Shown piece after piece: positions 145 through 11,549 of a DNA stretch of 15,942 nucleotides; the stretch's first letter is position 1; each line of letters opens with the position of its first letter. Position numbers and translations under genes: made by a program. This DNA is from an uncultured Gemmatimonadota bacterium. Lineage in GTDB: Bacteria; Gemmatimonadota; Gemmatimonadetes; Gemmatimonadales; Gemmatimonadaceae. The notes beneath the pieces are model-generated. The model saw only the letters and a list, made by a program, of their open reading frames with translations. It was not told the DNA's origin and made no database searches. The stretch covers positions 1 through 15,942 of the forward strand of contig CAMLEQ010000033.1 in the NCBI GenBank assembly GCA_946479015.1, given 5' to 3'.

Positions 145-831
145 TCAGACGCCGCCGTTCTTACTCTGGAGCTCCTTCCGGTACGCGTCGCTCGCGTAGA
201 TCGCCACCTCCACGCGTCGGTTCTGCTGGCGTCCCGCATCGGTGGCGTTCGATGCCACCGGCTCCGCCTCGCCGCGCCCTGAAGTGTGGATCCGGTCGCG
301 CGACACCCCCTGCGCCGCCAGGTAGTCCGCGGCCGCGAGCGCGCGCCGCTCGGAGAGCTGCTGGTTGTACGAGGAGGTGCCCACCGAGTCCGTGTGGCCG
401 ACGATGAGCAGGTCGGTGTTCGGGTACTTGTCGAGGCTCGCCGCCAGGTTGTGCAGGTTCTGTCCCGCCTCCGGGCGGATCCGGTCGGAGTCGAAGTCGT
501 AGAGCAGCCCCGACTGGAACGTCACCTGGATTCCCTCCCCCACGCGCTCCACCTTCGCGCCGGGGATGTTCTGCGCGAGCTCTCGCGCCTGCTTGTCCAT
601 CTGGTGGCCGATGATCGCGCCCACCGCGCCTCCCACCGCCGCGCCGATGATGGCGCCCTTGGCCGTGGACCCGTTGTTCTTCCCGATCACGCCGCCCACG
701 GCGCCGCCGGCGCCCGCGCCGATGATCGCCCCCTTCTGCGCGCGGTTCATGCTCTTGCACGACGCCGAGCCAATCGTCGCCAGTATAATGAGTGCGGCCG
801 CGCCGCCATTCCGCCGAGCTGTGCTGCGCAT
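145..831 (-). CDS. OmpA-family peptidoglycan-binding lipoprotein with glycine zipper
   Basis: A 228-residue protein. Residues 1-25 form a lipoprotein signal ending in the lipobox SASC (Cys25), so it is probably lipid-anchored to the outer membrane. Residues 33-76 are a glycine-zipper stretch with repeated GAxxG-type motifs, as in SlyB and YiaD-like proteins. Residues 100-214 are an OmpA C-terminal domain with GHTDSVG at 145-151, LSERRA at 159-164 and NRRVEV at 204-209. Asp148 and Arg163 have the 15-residue spacing of the diaminopimelate-binding pair in this family. The role is to tie the outer membrane to peptidoglycan. The chosen ATG has an AAGGAG ribosome binding site nine bases upstream. 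It is the last gene of a minus-strand series containing the usher-like gene, but it has its own structured leader. YiaD-like is the closest assignment; a symbol is not justified. Confidence 0.93.
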   Translation of the reverse strand: MRSTARRNGGAAALIILATIGSASCKSMNRAQKGAIIGAGAGGAVGGVIGKNNGSTAKGAIIGAAVGGAVGAIIGHQMDKQARELAQNIPGAKVERVGEGIQVTFQSGLLYDFDSDRIRPEAGQNLHNLAASLDKYPNTDLLIVGHTDSVGTSSYNQQLSERRALAAADYLAAQGVSRDRIHTSGRGEAEPVASNATDAGRQQNRRVEVAIYASDAYRKELQSKNGGV

Positions 832-835
832 GGTT

Positions 836-881
836 CATTGCTCCTTGCTGGTGCGTCGGGACTCTCCTAGCAGGAGCAATG
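836..881 (-). promoter_or_regulatory. Leader hairpin that can hide the OmpA-gene ribosome binding site
   Basis: On the plus strand CATTGCTCCT (836-845) is perfectly complementary to AGGAGCAATG (872-881). In the minus-strand mRNA the copy nearer the start codon contains the Shine-Dalgarno bases, so the 10-bp stem with a 26-base loop would occlude ribosome binding. The upstream anti-Shine-Dalgarno CUCCU can instead pair with a local AGGAG (864-868) to make a 5-bp, 3-base-loop hairpin, giving two exclusive folds. The pairing is read from sequence; a regulatory function is inferred. Confidence 0.45.
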
Positions 882-2042: not shown

Positions 2043-5000
2043 TCACGGCCGCCTGCCCGCGCGCGCGCATCCCTCGCGCGCCGGATCGGTGCCGTCGCGC
2101 GCCAGCGCATCGCGCGCGCGCATCTCCTCGTCCGTGAGCGGTCCCGGGTCCGGCACGCGCAGCCGGAGTCCATCCGGCAGCACCGTCGGGCTCACGAGAC
2201 GGCATCGGTTCGCCACCCAGATCTTCGGCCACAGCGCCGCGTCGCCGTACATGAAGCTCGCGATCGCCATGAGATTGGTGTCCCATCTGGTCACCGTGTA
2301 CCAGTGCCGGACCGCTGTGGAGCCCGGCGCCCCGCTTCGCACTCCATGCCGGCCCGCGGTGTAGCTGTCGCGCGCGGCGATCTCCTCCGAAGTGAGCGGC
2401 GCGGAGTCGGGGACGAACAGCCGCACTCCCGCCGGGAGCCGCTCGGCGGAGCGGAGCATGCGCCGGTTCGCGAGCCACAGCTTCGGCCAGAGCGCGCTGT
2501 CGCCGTACACGAAGCCCGCGATGCTCGGCAGGTCCGTGTCCCATCGCGTGACCGTGTATCGGTGGTGGATCGCGCCCGGCGCGCGGGCCTCGCGGCCGGC
2601 GGCGACATCGGTGCGGCGCACAGAGGAGTCGGCGGCGGCCACTCGGGCCACCGTGTCGCCCGCCGGCCGGAGGTGCGCCACGGCGGTGCTGTCACGGGAC
2701 CTCGCATCGAGCTCACCCTTGATGATGATGCGTATCGCGCGCTTGCGCGGCAGCACTCGCGCGGCGATGGCAGTGTCGCTCCCCGGCGCGACATCGAGTT
2801 CGAAGGCCTCCTGCTCCAGGTAGTGCTCCGGCGGCAGCATCGCCCGCTCCACCCGGAGCGTCCAGCGCCCCGGACGCAGATCCTCGAAGCGGAAGCGCCC
2901 GTCGCCGTCGGTGACCCGCCGCACGATCTCGCTCCCGCTCGTGAGCGCGACGATGGCGCCCTGCAGACCGCCCACTCGCGTGATGGACGAGCCCGAGTCC
3001 GCCGCGCCCGCAGCCGTGGCGTTGAACACATCCACTTGCCCGCTCACGCGCGCGGCGCGTACCACCCCCAGCTCCACGCGCGTCGTGCCACCTACCGTCA
3101 CCTTCACCGGCAGCGGGTTCTCCTGCGTGGGTACACGGTCGAGCCCGATGCTGCCGCGATCGAGCTCCAGGTACTGCACGCCGGGGCGAATGCCCGTCAG
3201 CATCAGACGCCCGGCACCGTCGGTCAGGACGGCGCGCCCGCCCACTCGCACGAGCGCATTCGCGACGCCGCGTCCGCTCTCCACGTCGTACACGCGCCCG
3301 CTGATGCGCGCCGACGTGCGCGAGTGGCTCACCGGGATCCCGAGCGGCACGCGGTATTCGAGCTCCGCCACCGACTCGCCGAGCGCCGCGACGCCAGCGA
3401 ACGTGCGCAGGCGCACTCTCGCACTCAACTCGTGTCCGAACGGGAGCCGCTGCTCCACCGCCGCGTCCACGCTGCCGGACCGGAACGAGGAGTTGGTGCC
3501 GTCGCGCACCCCGCGTGCGAGGAGCCGAATGCGCGTGGCATCGTGACCGAGCCGCATGGTCGCATTGGCCGTGGCCGACATCTGCTCGCGCGACCAGGAC
3601 GTGTACAGGCTGCTCCCTGCCCAGCGGTCGACCGAGACGCCGTACGACATCCGGGTGCCCGGCGCGAGCAGCGCCTGCACCGCTTCGTGCTCGAACGGGC
3701 GCCACTCGGCGACCGCCGCCCGCTCCCTCGAACGCCCGCGCTCGGCGAGTCCGGCAATGGTCAACGGACCGAGCCGCGCGCGCGCGCGCAGCCGCACCGA
3801 TTCCTGCACGCCGCCACGACCGAGGAGCAGGGAGCCGGCGCGCTCCGTCCGCACGTAGTCCGCGCCGATCGCCGAGCCGTACGCGATCCCCCCTTCCATC
3901 CGCCGCTGCCGATCGTCGATCGTCGTGGCCAGGAACGGGATCGAGTGCGACTGTTCCGCGATCTGGCCGTGCACCGCGAGCTGGCGCCAGACGCGCACCC
4001 AGGCGCTGCCGCCATCGTAGGCGGTGCCGCTCGCCGAGCCCGGGTAGTCCCTCCCCGCCGCGAGGTGCTGCGCCGAGATGCCGAGCCGCGCCCAGCTCCC
4101 GGTGAGCGAGACGGTGTTCGCGGTGCTCCGCCTCGTGGCGCTGGCGCCGAAACCGTACTCCGCATCCACGCGCGTGCCGGGGATCGGCGCCACCGAGCCG
4201 CGCACGGCCCAGAGCGAGCCTGGACGGCTCCCTCCTCGCGACAGGTAGGTGACCCCCAGCGTGGAGCTCGTGCCGAGGCGGGCGGTGGCGAAGCCGCCCT
4301 CGTGCCGGTCGTCGTAGAACGTGGATCCCCACCGACTGCGGAGCGCGAAGCCGCCGACGGTGAGCGGGCCGGTGGTGACGCGCCCCGATGCGCCGAAGCC
4401 CGAGCGCCCGCTCTCGGTGAGCGGCGAGAGTGCCACGCTCTGATCGCCGAGGCGAAGGTCGGCGCGCGACGAGCCGAGTCCGATCCGGTATTCATCCCGC
4501 TCCCCGAAGGCGACGAGCGGTGCCGGCTGGGGGCCGCGCAGGAGGACGTCGAGCTGCGTGTCCCCTCCATCCGTGAGCGTTCCTCGCGCCCGCAGCTCGC
4601 CCGTGTAGTACATCGCCTCCGGCGTCCCCGGCGCGCCCTTCACGCTGATGCCGCGCACGGCCACCTCGGCGGGGAGCGTGTGGAAGCGATGCGCCGGTTC
4701 GGTCACCTGCGGGATGAGCTCCACCACGCTCGCCGCGCTGGCCGGCGGCACGCTGTCGCGCGCGGCGAGACTCGCGCGGAGCTCGAGCCGGTGCAGGAGA
4801 TGCCGGCTCCGCAGGCCGTCGGTCCGCACCACCACGCGCACCTGCGCCGACGCGCCGGGGCGCAGGTGTACCACGCCGCTGTCGAGCGACGTCGGCAGAT
4901 CGTTGCCGCTCGCGACGCGCAGTGTCACCGCTGCCTCCACGTTGCCGGAATTCCGCACCGAGAACGTCGCCGCGTAGGCGCTCCCCGCCGCGATGCGGCG

Positions 5001-5447
5001 CGGCGCGTCGAGGAGCACGACCTCGATGTGGTGGTACGCGCGCACGTCCACGGCGATCGAGTCCACGCGCAGCAGCACGCGCGCATCGCTCGGGAGCGGT
5101 GTGAGCACCACCCAGTACCGCCCCGGCGCCGCATCGGAGGGGACCGCCACGCGCACGATGCACAGCTCGCGCGCCCCCGCGTCCGCGTCGATCGGCGCCT
5201 GGGGAGTAACGAGGCGCCAGCCGGCCGGGTACGCGATGCGCGGCTGGATGCGCATCGCGCGGCGCGAGGGGTTCGACACCCGGAACACCAGCGTGACGCC
5301 ATCGCCGGGCTTCGCGGCGACGCTGTCCGGGGCGTGACCGCCGGTCGCGTCCGGAGCGGGAGTGCTGGCTCTGGCAGAGATGGGCATCGCGGCGAGCAGC
5401 GAGAGCAGGACGGCGCAGCCCGTGCATGCGAGCCGCAGGCTGGACAC
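2043..5447 (-). CDS. Usher-like outer-membrane protein with two C-terminal LysM repeats
   Basis: A 1134-residue secreted protein starting at GTG, with GGGAG four bases upstream and only 11 bp after the chaperone-like gene, so the two are almost certainly co-translated. Residues 1-27 are a signal peptide. Residues 45-135 and 145-245 resemble NEW3/Ig-type beta-sandwich domains (VSNPSRRAM, VRNSGNVEAAV). Residues 255-700 are a long series of short amphipathic, Gly/Tyr/Arg-rich segments typical of an outer-membrane barrel. Residues 711-795 and 799-900 are carboxypeptidase-regulatory-like domains (GRVYDVESGRGVANALVRV; TDGDGRFRFEDLRPG), the fold also found near usher C-termini. Residues 963-1013 and 1048-1099 are LysM domains. 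The most economical reading is an assembly and secretion platform partnered with the adjacent chaperone, anchored to peptidoglycan through LysM. Classical ushers such as FimD or PapC are roughly 800-880 residues and lack LysM. The usher assignment is inference; a large surface scaffold is the alternative. Confidence 0.75.
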   Translation of the reverse strand: MSSLRLACTGCAVLLSLLAAMPISARASTPAPDATGGHAPDSVAAKPGDGVTLVFRVSNPSRRAMRIQPRIAYPAGWRLVTPQAPIDADAGARELCIVRVAVPSDAAPGRYWVVLTPLPSDARVLLRVDSIAVDVRAYHHIEVVLLDAPRRIAAGSAYAATFSVRNSGNVEAAVTLRVASGNDLPTSLDSGVVHLRPGASAQVRVVVRTDGLRSRHLLHRLELRASLAARDSVPPASAASVVELIPQVTEPAHRFHTLPAEVAVRGISVKGAPGTPEAMYYTGELRARGTLTDGGDTQLDVLLRGPQPAPLVAFGERDEYRIGLGSSRADLRLGDQSVALSPLTESGRSGFGASGRVTTGPLTVGGFALRSRWGSTFYDDRHEGGFATARLGTSSTLGVTYLSRGGSRPGSLWAVRGSVAPIPGTRVDAEYGFGASATRRSTANTVSLTGSWARLGISAQHLAAGRDYPGSASGTAYDGGSAWVRVWRQLAVHGQIAEQSHSIPFLATTIDDRQRRMEGGIAYGSAIGADYVRTERAGSLLLGRGGVQESVRLRARARLGPLTIAGLAERGRSRERAAVAEWRPFEHEAVQALLAPGTRMSYGVSVDRWAGSSLYTSWSREQMSATANATMRLGHDATRIRLLARGVRDGTNSSFRSGSVDAAVEQRLPFGHELSARVRLRTFAGVAALGESVAELEYRVPLGIPVSHSRTSARISGRVYDVESGRGVANALVRVGGRAVLTDGAGRLMLTGIRPGVQYLELDRGSIGLDRVPTQENPLPVKVTVGGTTRVELGVVRAARVSGQVDVFNATAAGAADSGSSITRVGGLQGAIVALTSGSEIVRRVTDGDGRFRFEDLRPGRWTLRVERAMLPPEHYLEQEAFELDVAPGSDTAIAARVLPRKRAIRIIIKGELDARSRDSTAVAHLRPAGDTVARVAAADSSVRRTDVAAGREARAPGAIHHRYTVTRWDTDLPSIAGFVYGDSALWPKLWLANRRMLRSAERLPAGVRLFVPDSAPLTSEEIAARDSYTAGRHGVRSGAPGSTAVRHWYTVTRWDTNLMAIASFMYGDAALWPKIWVANRCRLVSPTVLPDGLRLRVPDPGPLTDEEMRARDALARDGTDPAREGCARAGRRP
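2151..2561 (-). repeat. Tandem LysM-coding duplication in the usher-like gene
   Basis: Two units encode YTVTRWDT, YGDxALWPK and PLTxEE in register (LysM cores at 2409-2561 and 2151-2306). By hand alignment well over half of the residues match, and the similarity continues past the LysM core into a shared tail, PLTxEExxARD. This indicates internal duplication of a unit of about 86 codons. Both copies carry Arg-Trp where canonical LysM has Pro-Gly before Asp-Thr. Confidence 0.8.
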
Positions 5448-5458
5448 CGTGCTCCCGA

Positions 5459-6292
5459 TCAGAACGTGAGCGTGATCTGCCCGCCGATCACGTCGTCGCC
5501 GCCGCCATCGACCAGGAGCAGGGCGCGGTAGCGCCCCGGTTTGAACCGCGTGAGGTCGAAGCGCTGCCGCAGCGAAGAGCCAGGGTAGAGCGGCTCGCGC
5601 CCCTGCGAGAGCTTCCCCGCGAGCGTGCCGCTCTCATCGTACAGCTCGATCGAGAGCTTCGGATGGATGCCGCGCTCTCCCGTGTTCACGATGTCCCAGA
5701 GCAGAAGCCGGCGGCCGTCCACCATCGCCACCTTCACATCGCCGAAGGCGACCTTGGTCGCACCGCGCGGAAGGAGGTGTGTCACGAGCTGGATGGCGTA
5801 GCGCACGTGCGCCTCCACCCCGACGTGCACCTGTGGGGTGGACGCGGCGTGCAGCCGCGACTCCGGTGACGTCTTCGCGATCACCTCCACCATGAGCATG
5901 CTCCAGTGCGTCCCCGGGAGTGGCGCGGCATCGCGCGGCGGCACCGTGACGGTGTAGCTGACGTCCACCGTCTGGTGCGAGGGGATCATGACGTACGATG
6001 GACTGAACGCGATCCACTTCGCGTTCGAGCGCGGCGTCGTGCCCGGCGCGCCGTAGAGCGTGCGGCCGTCGGCGTACGCCAGGTAGTCCGTCTGGTAGAG
6101 CTTCGCCTCCACCGGCCCGTCAGTCGGATTACCTAGCGTGATGACGCCCGAGTAGCGCTCGCCCGGCCGCGCCTCGCGCTCGACGATCGAGCCGCTGCGG
6201 ATCTCGATCTGCGCCGCCACGGCGGTGGGCATCATCAGCGCCGCCGTGAGCGCGATGGTCATGGTGTGGCAATGTCTGCGGAGTCCGAACAC
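5459..6292 (-). CDS. Periplasmic two-domain Ig-fold chaperone-like protein (PapD / WxL-interacting-protein type)
   Basis: A 277-residue secreted protein. The GTG start at 6292 is preferred over ATG 6262 because it adds the basic n-region (LRRH) that the following hydrophobic segment needs; cleavage is likely after AVAA near residue 27. Residues 28-140 form one beta-sandwich (GVITLGNPTDGPVEAKLY, a KWIAFSP segment, then VSYTVTVPPRDAAPLPGTHW). Residues 155-277 form a second (LLLWDIVNTGERGIHPKLSI ending in GGQITLTF). This is the layout of PapD-type pilus chaperones and also of Gram-positive DUF916/DUF3324 WxL-interacting proteins. It stands 11 bp before the usher-like gene and divergent from a secreted beta-protein gene, so it probably caps or delivers that subunit in the periplasm. 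Assignment to a precise family would need profile searches. Confidence 0.72.
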   Translation of the reverse strand: MFGLRRHCHTMTIALTAALMMPTAVAAQIEIRSGSIVEREARPGERYSGVITLGNPTDGPVEAKLYQTDYLAYADGRTLYGAPGTTPRSNAKWIAFSPSYVMIPSHQTVDVSYTVTVPPRDAAPLPGTHWSMLMVEVIAKTSPESRLHAASTPQVHVGVEAHVRYAIQLVTHLLPRGATKVAFGDVKVAMVDGRRLLLWDIVNTGERGIHPKLSIELYDESGTLAGKLSQGREPLYPGSSLRQRFDLTRFKPGRYRALLLVDGGGDDVIGGQITLTF

Positions 6293-6609
6293 TGCGTCTC
6301 GATGTGGTGAGTGGCCCCTAATGAATGCATCTTCATCGCGCGCGTGCTCGTTAGGCGATCATAATCGTGTTCGCTGCCTTCGACGCCCGTGTCGCGCGCG
6401 ATGCGCACCTTGCTGTGACGATCGGATGTATGGGAAGTCATAGCTCCGACCGACACCCGCCGCGGCCCGCACACGCGATGCACTCCAGTGAGAATCGTCT
6501 CACGCGATGGCGAAGCGCGGCGCGCCGCGGCCGGGGGAGCTCGACGGATCACGCATCGGTCCCGCTCGGGCTCGACGTTCACCTCACACTTCTCTCTGAG
6601 GACATCTTC
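6293..6609. promoter_or_regulatory. Divergent intergenic region between chaperone-like and subunit-like genes
   Basis: A 317-bp non-coding region that must hold the promoters of both transcription units. The chaperone side (6301-6370) is relatively AT-rich and includes TATGAT on the minus strand (6363-6358), a plausible -10 with no convincing -35. The subunit side contains a 16-bp palindrome at 6488-6503 and the short inverted repeat CCTCA/TGAGG (6582-6586, 6597-6601), whose second arm overlaps the subunit ribosome binding site. The open frame running through from 367 is not treated as coding because its residues there look like random GC-rich translation. Confidence 0.5.
6488..6503. promoter_or_regulatory. 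Perfect hyphenated palindrome GTGAGA-N4-TCTCAC
   Basis: Arms GTGAGA and TCTCAC are exact reverse complements separated by ATCG. It lies 107 bp upstream of the subunit-like start codon and about 195 bp from the chaperone-like start. The size and symmetry fit a dimeric regulator's operator. The regulator is unknown, and the site is single in this region. Confidence 0.4.
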
Positions 6610-7104
6610 ATGAAGCTGATCCGCTTTCTCCCCGCGGTCGCGCTCACCGCGCTGATCACCGGCACGGCGAGCGCGCAGAGCACCACCGCGCAGGCGACGG
6701 TGACCTACTCGGTGACGGACACCAAGTCGATCGCGGTCTCCGGCGACCCGGGGGCGATGAGCGTGAGCGCCGGCGGCTCCGGCGCGACGGCGACGGAGAA
6801 CACGACGACGTACGACGTGACCACGAACGCCGCGCCCGCCTCCCCGGCGAAGATCACGGCGCAGCTCGGCTCGGCGATGCCGACCGGCGTGACGCTGAGC
6901 GTGGATCTCGCGGATCCCGATGGCGCCGGCGCCGCGACGAGCGCGGGCTCGGTCGCGCTGAGTGATGCGGCCGCGACGGACGTGGTCACGAACATCTCCA
7001 ACCTCGATGCGCCGGGAAACACGATCACCTACTCGCTCGCGGCGACCGCCGCGGCGTCTGCGGCGTCGAACAACACGGTCGTGGTGACGTACACGATCCA
7101 GTGA
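6610..7104 (+). CDS. Secreted Ala/Thr/Ser-rich beta protein, candidate fibre subunit
   Basis: A 164-residue protein with a clean signal peptide (cleavage after ASA, residue 22) and no cysteines, giving a mature chain of about 142 residues. GAGGA lies seven bases before the ATG. The mature chain opens with an alternating strand (ATVTYSVTD) and ends with another (TVVVTYTIQ). The middle is Ala/Gly/Thr/Ser rich with segments such as TTYDVTT and GVTLSVDL. This strand-at-both-ends layout is what donor-strand-exchanging pilins show, and the gene faces a chaperone-like/usher-like pair. I do not recognise a named family; DUF4402, spore-coat-U or WxL-like surface proteins are conceivable relatives. It appears monocistronic, ending in a strong hairpin. 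A subunit role is inferred from context and composition, not from a specific motif. Confidence 0.75.
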   Translation: MKLIRFLPAVALTALITGTASAQSTTAQATVTYSVTDTKSIAVSGDPGAMSVSAGGSGATATENTTTYDVTTNAAPASPAKITAQLGSAMPTGVTLSVDLADPDGAGAATSAGSVALSDAAATDVVTNISNLDAPGNTITYSLAATAAASAASNNTVVVTYTIQ

Positions 7105-7125
7105 GCGCCCGCTCGGGTGGCCGCT

Positions 7126-7169
7126 GAAGCACGACGCCTCCGGCGGCATCGCCGGAGGCGTCGTGCTTC
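7126..7169 (+). terminator. Perfect 20-bp-stem hairpin after the subunit-like gene
   Basis: Bases 7126-7145 and 7150-7169 are exact reverse complements with a GCAT loop, 21 bp past the stop codon. There is no T-run after the stem, so it may act as a strong 3' stabilising hairpin as well as a terminator. It also separates the unit from the opposing membrane-protein operon. Confidence 0.75.
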
Positions 7170-7240
7170 GTGTCGGGACCCGGCCCCGACGGGGGAGCGC
7201 GGCAACCTCTCGATCCTCCTCAGTATCTTCCCACCTCCCC

Positions 7241-7639
7241 TCACGCGGGGTTCGCCTCCATCTCCCGCCACGGCAGTGCCCTCGAGCGGATGAAGCGCGC
7301 GAGCCGGTCGGCCGCGACCATGGCCACGATCCCGATCAGCAGGTGCGCCACGCGCACCACCCAGTGCGCGGGTCCGGGGAGCAGTCGCATCTGCGCGATG
7401 CCGAACGCCGGGATCACCAGCCCCCACGCGACGGCCGCGAGCACCAGCGCCGGGTGCAGCCCGGCGCGGGCGGCGATCGCGGCGAGGAGCCAGAGCGCGA
7501 TCACGAACGCCACCCCGATCGCCATGTGAACCGGCAGGAGCGCCAGCGCCCGCCCGCTCCAGAACAGCAGGCCGAGCACCACCAGCGCCGGCCCCGTCAC
7601 GCGCACCACCCAGCGCGCGATGTTCGTCATCCTCATCAT
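7241..7639 (-). CDS. Four-helix integral membrane protein of unknown function
   Basis: A 132-residue protein with four predicted membrane helices (about 13-27, 37-57, 63-83 and 91-110) and a basic, soluble C-terminal tail (DRLARFIRSR). Histidines at 38, 62, 92 and 99 lie in or at the ends of helices. No enzyme motif is recognised. The start is the first of two consecutive ATGs, with an excellent ribosome site (GGAGGGGAGGGG) seven bases upstream. It follows the next gene after only 21 bp, so both form an operon reading away from the TetR-type regulator and are probably repressed by it. Membrane His residues could bind haem or metal, but nothing here proves it. Confidence 0.75.
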   Translation of the reverse strand: MMRMTNIARWVVRVTGPALVVLGLLFWSGRALALLPVHMAIGVAFVIALWLLAAIAARAGLHPALVLAAVAWGLVIPAFGIAQMRLLPGPAHWVVRVAHLLIGIVAMVAADRLARFIRSRALPWREMEANPA

Positions 7640-9071: not shown

Positions 9072-9974
9072 TCACGGCCCCGTGAAGAACTCCGCCATGT
9101 TCGATGCGGCCGCCGCCGTCCCTGGAAAGCGCGCGAGCCCCAGCCCTTCGGCGGTGAGACGCAGCGTGCTCTCGTGCCCGTACGGCGCGCCCGAGCGGTA
9201 GCCGCGCTTCGACCGCGGGCTCACCTCCACCCACGCCACGCGCCCTCCGCCTCCGGTGCCGTCGTCGTGCGTGGCCTCGTCGAACACGATGATGAGCAGG
9301 CCATTGTCCTGGAATGCGGCGCTCGAGATGAGCGGCGCGATGTGCAGGCGCAGCCACGCGTCCGCGGTGGCGGGGGGACAGTTGTGCGCATCGTCGCACA
9401 TGTCCGGCACGATGAAGCCGTAGTCGGGGAGCGCGTTCCCCTTCAGGTCCGCGCCGAGCTGCGTCAGCGGCACCAGGTTCTGTCGCTGCGCCGGATCGTC
9501 CACCACATCAGAGAGGTACGACATCGGGTTGTGCGACCGTGCGTACCTGCCCCGGCTCCCTCCCGTGTAGCCCGCGAAAGGGAGGTCCTCGTCGTACGAC
9601 TTCCACGTCCTTCCCGCGGCCACCAGCTCGCGCACGATGTTGTCCGCCGTCACCGTGCCGCCGAACGCGTCGTCGTTCGTGACGACGTCTCCCACCGTGA
9701 GCATGAAGTAGTTGCCGATGGACGGGTGCGTGTCCGCGTGGTACTCGGTGGCGAGCCCGTACTGGCCGGCGAGGCTGTCCAGGTACGGCATCGCGTGCCC
9801 GTCGATCACCGTCTCGTAGTCGCGGTTCTCCTCCACCACCACGAACACGTGCGAGAAGCGCGGGGTGGGCTCGCTCGTCGCCGATGAGTGCGGCGCCGTC
9901 GCGTCGCTCGTGCTCCCGCATGCGGCGAGGAGGAGCGCCCCCGCGCCGAGTACCAGTCGTCCAGCCCGCTGCAT
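9072..9974 (-). CDS. Lipoprotein phosphoesterase (phospholipase C / acid phosphatase AcpA-like family)
   Basis: A 300-residue protein with a lipoprotein signal (LLAAC, Cys19) followed by a Ser/Thr/Pro linker to about residue 38. It then shows the conserved blocks of the phosphoesterase family of the alkaline-phosphatase superfamily: VVVEENRDYETVI (45-57), DTHPSIGNYF (81-90), PDMCDDAHNCP (190-200), LIIVFDEATHDD (227-238) and YGHESTLRL (265-273). The acidic, Asn and His residues in these blocks are the expected metal ligands, and Ser85 in HPS is the likely nucleophile. It probably hydrolyses phosphomonoesters or phosphodiesters at the cell surface or in the periplasm; the substrate cannot be told. 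It is shorter than phospholipase C enzymes and closer to the small bacterial acid-phosphatase group. The start is set by the lipoprotein signal; the ribosome site is poor. It is divergent from the multicopper oxidase gene. Confidence 0.88.
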   Translation of the reverse strand: MQRAGRLVLGAGALLLAACGSTSDATAPHSSATSEPTPRFSHVFVVVEENRDYETVIDGHAMPYLDSLAGQYGLATEYHADTHPSIGNYFMLTVGDVVTNDDAFGGTVTADNIVRELVAAGRTWKSYDEDLPFAGYTGGSRGRYARSHNPMSYLSDVVDDPAQRQNLVPLTQLGADLKGNALPDYGFIVPDMCDDAHNCPPATADAWLRLHIAPLISSAAFQDNGLLIIVFDEATHDDGTGGGGRVAWVEVSPRSKRGYRSGAPYGHESTLRLTAEGLGLARFPGTAAAASNMAEFFTGP

Positions 9975-10133
9975 ACCGTACCGCCCGCCTCGATGTGCCT
10001 CCGGTGTCACCGCAGCCGGCACGATGGCGCCGGACTCGGCACCGGTGTCGAAGGCAATTCCCGGACTTGCGGCGGCGGCGGCTTCGTGCATCCGTCGTGG
10101 CGAGACATCACGAATTCTTCGCGGGAGGCTCAC

Positions 10134-11549
10134 ATGCCCGACCATCACGAGGTCACCGAGCACGGGCACCACGAGCACGGGCACCACGAGCACCAGCACC
10201 ATCATGGCGGCCACGGCCCCGTCATCCACGCGCCGCCGGCCGATGCGCACGTCGCGTACGACCGCGCGTTCGATGCCGCGCGCCCCGATCCGGGACGCGA
10301 GGTGGTGTCCGTGGAGCTCGTCGCCGGCGACTGCGACTGGGAGCTCGCCCCCGGCCGCACCGTCCGCGGCTGGGGCTACAACGGCCAGATCCCCGGCCCC
10401 ACCATCGAGGCGCGCGTGGGCGACGTCCTCGAGGTGCATCTCACGAATCGCCTCCCCGAGCCCACCACCATCCACTGGCACGGGCTCCGGGTGCCGGCGG
10501 CGATGGACGGCACGGACATGGTCCAGCACCCCATCGAGCCGGGCGGCACCTTCACCTACCGCTTCCGCCTCCCCGACGCCGGCACCTTCTGGTATCACCC
10601 GCACAGCAACGAGACCGTGCAGATGGAGCGCGGCCTCTCCGGCGCGCTCATCGTGCGCGGCGAGAACGAGCCGTTCCTCGACGCCGAGCGGGTGCTCGTG
10701 CTCGACGACGTGGCGCTCGACCGCAAGGGGCAGATCAGGCCGCCCGGGTGGTGGATCGAGCAGCACAACGGACGCGAGGGAAGCACCCGCCTCGTGAACG
10801 GAAAGAGAGAGCCGGAGCTGACCATGGCCGCCGGGCAGATCGAGCGCTGGCGGATCGTGAACGCCGCGAGCGCGCGCTACGTGCGCCTCTCCATCGGCGG
10901 CCGTCCGTTCATCATCCTCGGCACCGACGGCGGGCTACTCGGCGCGCCCGTCACCGTGAGCGAGGTGCTGCTGACGCCGGCGGACCGCGTGGACATCGCC
11001 GTGGGGCCGTTCGCCAAGGGGGACGTGCTGCGCATCGATGCGCTCCCGTACGACCGCCGCAGCCTCCAGCGCGTGCGCACCCAGCGCTTCGCGACGCTGC
11101 GCGTCGGCCCCGCGGCCCCATCGCGCGCCGTGATCCCCGAGACGATGCGCCCCATCGAGCCGCTCGTGACCGGTCCCGTGCCGCCGACGCGCGAGGTGCA
11201 CCTCGGCGTGCGGGCGAGCATGCGCCACGGTGTGGACTTCCTCATCGGCGGCGAGCAGCACCATCGCGACCAGCCCGTGACCGTGAACGAGCTCCAGGTG
11301 TGGGACGTCTTCAACGACACCATGATGGATCACCCCTTCCACCTGCACGGCTTCTTCTTCCAGGTGCTGGAGGTGAACGGCCAGCCGCCGGACTTCCTCT
11401 CGTGGGAGGACACCGTGAACGTGCCCCCCAAGAGCCGCGTGCGCATCGCGTGGATGCCCGACGACCGGCCGGGGGAGTGGATGTACCACTGCCACATCCT
11501 CGAGCATCACGCGTCAGGGATGATGGCGCACTTCGAGGTGGTGAGGTGA
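10134..11549 (+). CDS. Multicopper oxidase (laccase-like) with His-rich N-terminus and no signal peptide
   Basis: A 471-residue protein with all four copper-binding blocks: HWH at 114-116, HPH at 155-157, HPFHLH at 400-405, and HCHILEHHASGM at 452-463, which supplies the type 1 Cys453, His458 and axial Met463. It is expected to oxidise phenolic, metal or other reducing substrates with four-electron reduction of oxygen to water. Residues 4-32 hold 14 histidines, a likely metal-capture tail encoded by a short repeat. Unlike most bacterial multicopper oxidases it has no Tat or Sec signal at the ATG, and the in-frame upstream sequence supplies none. GGGAGG lies five bases before the start, supporting that start. 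It overlaps no neighbour and is followed after ten bases by a truncated lipoprotein gene. Cuprous-oxidase versus laccase specificity is open; the Met-rich insertion of CueO is not evident. Confidence 0.92.
   Translation: MPDHHEVTEHGHHEHGHHEHQHHHGGHGPVIHAPPADAHVAYDRAFDAARPDPGREVVSVELVAGDCDWELAPGRTVRGWGYNGQIPGPTIEARVGDVLEVHLTNRLPEPTTIHWHGLRVPAAMDGTDMVQHPIEPGGTFTYRFRLPDAGTFWYHPHSNETVQMERGLSGALIVRGENEPFLDAERVLVLDDVALDRKGQIRPPGWWIEQHNGREGSTRLVNGKREPELTMAAGQIERWRIVNAASARYVRLSIGGRPFIILGTDGGLLGAPVTVSEVLLTPADRVDIAVGPFAKGDVLRIDALPYDRRSLQRVRTQRFATLRVGPAAPSRAVIPETMRPIEPLVTGPVPPTREVHLGVRASMRHGVDFLIGGEQHHRDQPVTVNELQVWDVFNDTMMDHPFHLHGFFFQVLEVNGQPPDFLSWEDTVNVPPKSRVRIAWMPDDRPGEWMYHCHILEHHASGMMAHFEVVR

Follow-up and report, generated by a model that had tools for sequence, protein, structure and literature searches.

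The whole stretch of DNA analyzed here (the window) comprises 15,942 nucleotides of contig CAMLEQ010000033.1 from an uncultured member of the Gemmatimonadaceae, and harbors a three-gene locus that probably encodes a chaperone-usher-type system for fibre secretion and assembly that stands apart, as a lineage of its own, from the classical, archaic, and alternative pathways. The minus strand carries the gene for a periplasmic chaperone of 277 aa (5459-6292) and, 11 bp beyond it, the gene for an usher-like outer-membrane platform of 1134 aa (2043-5447). The gene for a fibre subunit of 164 aa (6610-7104) lies on the plus strand and diverges from the chaperone gene across a 317-bp intergenic region (6293-6609). 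An earlier reading made from the sequence alone had proposed a chaperone/usher-like locus, perhaps a distinct fibre or surface-layer export system; its coordinates hold for the two minus-strand genes, and the proposal has gained support from a predicted barrel and from wide co-occurrence of the genes. Direct computation yields the gene set, the predicted chaperone and platform folds, the strand pattern of the subunits, and the loss of a strand from one subunit per locus nearly everywhere.

Genome contigs scanned with the chaperone profile contain 125 relatives; the analysis covers the 80 best loci, or 81 with the window. By record title, the 80 loci belong to Ignavibacteria/Bacteroidota (27), Deltaproteobacteria sensu lato (10), Gemmatimonadota (10), gamma- and beta-proteobacteria (8), Spirochaetota (4), Planctomycetota (3), Zixibacteria (2), and Armatimonadota (2), with seven single cases from other groups and seven unassigned; as many of the loci come from metagenome bins, individual cases may be misbinned. 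A hidden Markov model (HMM) places a platform downstream of the chaperone, and in the same orientation, in 79 of the 81 loci, the exceptions being L029, on a short contig, and L046, in which the platform lies upstream. The platform HMM was built from an alignment containing 48 of the 80 loci and is therefore circular; BLAST with the window proteins is free of this circularity and finds the platform in 75 and the subunit in 50 of the 80 other loci. An iterated subunit profile detects subunits in 74 of the 81 loci, and in the remaining seven the chaperone starts less than 900 nt from the contig start. Since homologues of all three genes are found together across many phyla, by BLAST as well as by HMMs, the linkage is not due to chance, and the co-occurrence that the sequence-only reading had set as a test is borne out. 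The system is patchy within the Gemmatimonadota, where 11 of 101 genomes match (seven strongly, with E 4.2e-79 or better, and four weakly). Cultured carriers include Thiocapsa, Thiohalocapsa, Thiococcus, and Deinococcus deserti. Where the homologues are named at all, they are mostly labeled 'hypothetical protein', and the window platform (residues 30-920 as query) is 99% identical over 91% to a partial protein of a Gemmatimonadaceae bacterium. On a plasmid of Deinococcus psychrotolerans (L108:4865-10611), the chaperone (E 3e-27) and platform are more distant and the small genes around them differ, perhaps marking a further sub-lineage.

The subunit matches its HMM at 6634-7101 (E 2e-38) and most likely starts at the ATG at 6610, rather than at the listed open reading frame (ORF) start of 6367. 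The other features ascribed to it, a signal peptide, the absence of cysteine, and an alternating hydrophobic pattern at both ends, are upheld. The signal peptide, MKLIRFLPAVALTALITGTASAQ, precedes a cysteine-free mature chain that opens with a putative N-terminal donor strand of alternating hydrophobics (residues 24-38, 6679-6723; STTAQATVTYSVTDT), as judged from alignment column statistics. Across 132 aligned rows, large hydrophobics occupy residues 31, 33, 35, and 38 in 96, 99, 100, and 96% of rows and the intervening residues 32, 34, and 36 in just 3, 8, and 11%; the window subunit itself has a threonine at residue 38. The hydrophobic pattern also suggests a C-terminal strand, the last of the protein (residues 157-164, 7078-7101), with large hydrophobics at 159, 161, and 163 in 100, 100, and 93% of rows. 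The subunit may adopt an immunoglobulin (Ig)-like fold that lacks its last strand and would need one from outside.

In ordinary subunits, alternating hydrophobics, as in TATQTVTFQVDAINE, fill the stretch between the signal peptide and the core. In 36 loci, the match of the subunit immediately upstream of the chaperone starts only at model position 24-35, and the signal peptide leads directly into the core; 5-13 residues separate the hydrophobic segment from position 30, compared with typically 22-28 in the rest. The same holds in L074, where the chaperone frame is broken up. In 32 further loci, the adjacent gene belongs to a second, divergent type with a motif like TGSWSETID...GAGSDL that is likewise strand-less; from column 34 onward, the subunit core is matched by the profile of this type (86.7%), which does not align with the first type (0.7%). 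With L028 and L058, which also have a strand-less subunit before the chaperone, this arrangement is found in 71 of the 73 loci with a subunit-type gene at that position. Only L035 and L077 deviate, with a strand-bearing subunit in this place; in L077 a strand-less subunit lies directly 3' of the platform, and the contig of L035 ends ∼600 nt past the chaperone. The remaining eight of the 81 are the window and seven loci truncated ahead of the chaperone. In Deinococcus deserti, which lies outside the sample, a strand-bearing subunit precedes the chaperone and a strand-less one, recognized by reading upstream of its annotated start, follows the platform; the row of subunit, chaperone, platform, and strand-less subunit is carried on plasmid 2 (L107:5480-9867).

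The tip adhesin of known pili is the one subunit that has no N-terminal extension, and the strand-less subunit may play the same role here. A few observations weigh against so simple a one-tip picture: L009 and L011 contain a second strand-less subunit, three more short subunit matches resemble genes that have been cut or split, and among 151 subunit matches not directly before the chaperone, 7 begin at 15-23. As a correction to the parts list drawn up from the sequence alone, the window has no strand-less subunit within reach of the locus, unlike nearly all other readable loci. The window may represent a one-subunit form, or its tip gene may lie elsewhere in the genome.

The chaperone model, generated with AlphaFold2 (AF2), consists of two Ig domains, in agreement with the earlier proposal of a two-domain Ig-fold periplasmic protein. 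By fold and strand pattern it has the PapD-type two-Ig architecture with an alternating hydrophobic G1 strand; the putative donor strand (residues 163-173, 5774-5806, minus strand), located by alignment and model, has hydrophobics at 163, 165, 167, and 169 and invariant R164 and Q168. The suggested comparison with DUF916 and DUF3324 proved fruitful, as the closest solved structure is WxLIP (DUF916+DUF3324), which is also the only one of five reference families matched over both domains (83.9%). In contrast, the chaperone profile has no match to PapD or among nine E. coli chaperones, and no PapD family appears for 79 chaperone members among the Pfam families listed (25 of 35). Searches of PDB sequences with the chaperone, the chaperone profile, and the platform return weak or LysM matches only. 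The Deinococcus deserti chaperone bears the annotation 'FimB/Mfa2 family fimbrial subunit', which is probably wrong. The Atribacteria genome of L064 encodes a second DUF916-like protein adjoining a small secreted protein (L081:1078-1917 and L081:1877-2431), in a short locus with no platform among its listed ORFs.

The resemblance to WxLIP raises the question of whether the locus is instead a diderm WxL/WxLIP wall-binding system, in which the 'chaperone' stays with the subunit as its structural partner on peptidoglycan and the barrel serves as a tether or porin. The Gram-positive WxL/WxLIP clusters resemble the present locus in the chaperone fold, in the profile match over both domains, and in the small protein genes adjoining the WxLIP gene; of 11 Gram-positive plasmid regions, 7 have annotated WxL genes next to that of WxLIP. 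In published AF2 models, a WxLIP strand completes the WxL sandwich by filling a gap in parallel (PMC10599100). However, the subunit profile has no match to nine WxL proteins in hhalign (0.2%), and a WxL identity of the subunit is accordingly rejected; in the same comparison, the first strand-less type scores 0.5% and the second 9.4% over 29 columns. In addition, the 277-aa chaperone ends in a strand (267-276), with no C-terminal transmembrane helix of the WxLIP type in its model, and an outer-membrane, usher-like platform is nearly constant across the loci. A wall-binding system of this kind is consequently a quite improbable reading.

The platform model (AF2; 83 sequences; predicted local distance difference test (pLDDT) 86; predicted template-modeling score 0.60) consists of two beta-sandwiches (42-245), a barrel, two further beta-sandwiches (732-900), a disordered link, and two LysM-type units. 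The N-terminal sandwiches (residues 40-245, 4713-5330) are NPCBM_assoc and HYDIN-type Ig-like domains, and the barrel (residues 255-721, 3285-4685) comprises 27 DSSP strand segments, or ∼26 strands, most of its ten-residue blocks exceeding pLDDT 90. The sequence-only reading had anticipated N-terminal sandwiches and a barrel-like middle at residues 255-700, and the model bears this out. No domain-size insertion interrupts the barrel strands in the model, which speaks for an unplugged barrel. The predicted carboxypeptidase-regulatory-like domains are confirmed by two stretches of PF13620 (CarboxypepD_reg; E 6e-12); by domain scan, model, and profiles, these two CarboxypepD_reg/transthyretin (TTR)-like domains (residues 726-905, 2733-3272) are the counterpart of usher C-terminal domains 1 and 2.

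The resemblance to ushers depends on more than the barrel. In Foldseek, the 12 best matches to the platform model are all FimD/PapC (E 3e-17 to 1.4e-10), with low query-normalized template-modeling scores of 0.18-0.24, as expected since multidomain chains superpose poorly. By VIA-align, the barrel is closest to MtrB (Z 20.9, 410 aligned), while the ushers (Z 13.2-15.4) do no better than TonB receptors or porins such as OccK10 (15.6); barrel Z by itself hence does not point to ushers. These scores would suit a barrel that acts as an MtrB-like or TonB-receptor-like conduit for other cargo with incidental neighbors. Against this, the chaperone and subunit genes are tightly linked to the platform across phyla, none of the ten window proteins scanned has a cytochrome match, and the C-terminal domains match those of ushers, which makes such a conduit highly improbable. 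Among 50 VIA-align rows, the usher rows alone reach through the C-terminal domains (platform 255-899 to FimD 137-833), and the platform profile matches the same region (window 726-867 to FimD 724-848, 87%; reversed controls 0.3-0.4%). The TTR/carboxypeptidase-regulatory-like fold is common, and hence the match supports descent from a shared ancestor with ushers short of proof. The chaperone profile also aligns with the platform N-terminus at 90% across 193 columns, against 0.3-0.5% for reversed controls, a lead only that the N-terminal domains could be chaperone-like, because the aligned stretch spans both signal peptides and generic Ig domains.

Membership in the classical FimC/FimD family is rejected, as already suspected from the unlike sequences. 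PF00577, PapC_N, and PapC_C have no match on the window platform at E up to 1 or on 17 other platforms at E 0.01, and PF00577 is found in none of 12 genomes carrying the system.

The platform tail contains two LysM-like domains, at residues ∼961-1013 (2409-2567) and ∼1046-1100 (2148-2312), the second also recovered by the PDB search. The earlier assignment of two terminal LysM domains stands on two beta-alpha-alpha-beta units in the AF2 model (962-1012 and 1048-1098) and two stretches of NCBIfam PRK11198 (E 3.3e-11), and is weakened by a PRK11198 score of 43.8 bits, below the cut-off of 134, and by the lack of a Pfam LysM match reaching E 0.01 on the window tail. Among 68 platforms with a complete C-terminal domain, one of them cut by the contig end, 38 end within 40 aa of that domain, and 29 tails (28 and the window) scanned at E 0.01 contain SPOR in 10 and LysM in two. 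Further LysM tails occur in P0126, P0130, and P0131, and a weak one in P0122. LysM is thus rejected as a defining feature; it is an exchangeable accessory of some platforms, with SPOR or nothing in others. Both SPOR and LysM are peptidoglycan-binding domains, in keeping with a C-terminus that lies in the periplasm and has an optional tie to the wall. Three Rhodothermales/Bacteroidetes platforms have long, hydrophobic tails instead (L061:12573-13811, L043:9675-10799, and L079:12463-13527), and one of the 29 scanned tails matches a mechanosensitive-channel domain.

The LysM or SPOR tails of part of the platforms, together with the single subunit of the window, would also fit a surface-display or surface-layer-type system in which subunits are exported singly by the platform or deposited by it on the outer membrane, LysM or SPOR ties this membrane to the wall, and no donor-strand polymerization takes place. 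Polymerization better fits the up to seven full subunits in one locus, the near-constant strand-less subunit, and the alternating donor-type strands, and surface display is therefore unlikely. Known outer-membrane proteins with LysM or SPOR share a peptidoglycan-binding tail after the barrel; in the present system, an usher-like platform carries this tail as an exchangeable accessory.

In the proposed fibre pathway, Sec would export the subunit, and the WxLIP/PapD-like chaperone would lend its G1 strand to complete the subunit fold. The chaperone-subunit complex would dock on the platform N-terminal Ig domains, where the next subunit would replace the chaperone strand with its own alternating N-terminal strand by donor-strand exchange, a mechanism described previously (PMC4654587). 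The growing chain would then pass through the unplugged barrel, aided by the two C-terminal domains, with the LysM domains holding the platform to peptidoglycan and, in most relatives, the subunit encoded beside the chaperone at the tip.

Chaperone-usher pili (FimC/FimD and PapD/PapC, archaic CsuC, and alternative CfaA and EcpB) share with this system a periplasmic chaperone of two Ig domains, a large barrel in the outer membrane with two beta-sandwiches on its C-terminal side, small subunits that start with an alternating strand, and clustered genes; a strand-less subunit adjoins the chaperone in nearly all readable loci of the present system. The differences lie in the missing usher and PapD family matches, the chaperone nearer WxLIP, the two NEW3/Ig domains at the platform N-terminus, and the predicted plug-less barrel of ∼26 strands, compared with 24 in FimD/PapC. 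Tentatively, and with some doubt, the system may be a deep, separate donor-strand lineage in many phyla, in which the chaperone is the diderm counterpart of WxLIP and the platform a plug-less usher with a chaperone-like N-terminal module; monoderm WxL clusters and diderm chaperone-usher pili would in that case have branched from a single ancestral system of strand donation. In the literature covered, in which subscription papers are thinly represented, no paper describes this system or unites WxL and chaperone-usher pili mechanistically. The system would extend donor-strand fibres to Gemmatimonadota, Ignavibacteria, Spirochaetota, Planctomycetota, and others and assign a function to a widespread, mostly 'hypothetical' protein set. 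It would also link the WxL clusters of Gram-positive bacteria to pili in a way that can be tested, with strand loss in one subunit as a direct handle on the mechanism.

A promoter scan of 5300-7250 finds no sigma-70-type site. An inverted repeat with perfectly matched 20-bp arms, a 4-base loop, and no T-run (7126-7169, plus strand), read from the sequence and not listed by the promoter scan, begins 21 bases past the subunit stop and likely marks the transcript end of the subunit gene. On the minus strand downstream of the platform, an ORF with GAF (PF01590) and response-regulator-receiver (PF00072) domains (940-2544) could regulate the locus, and a nearby OmpA-family protein with a glycine zipper (145-831, minus strand) is possibly another peptidoglycan binder. 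Elsewhere in the window, a multicopper oxidase (9888-11549, plus strand) lies opposite a phosphoesterase-family protein (9072-10766, minus strand).
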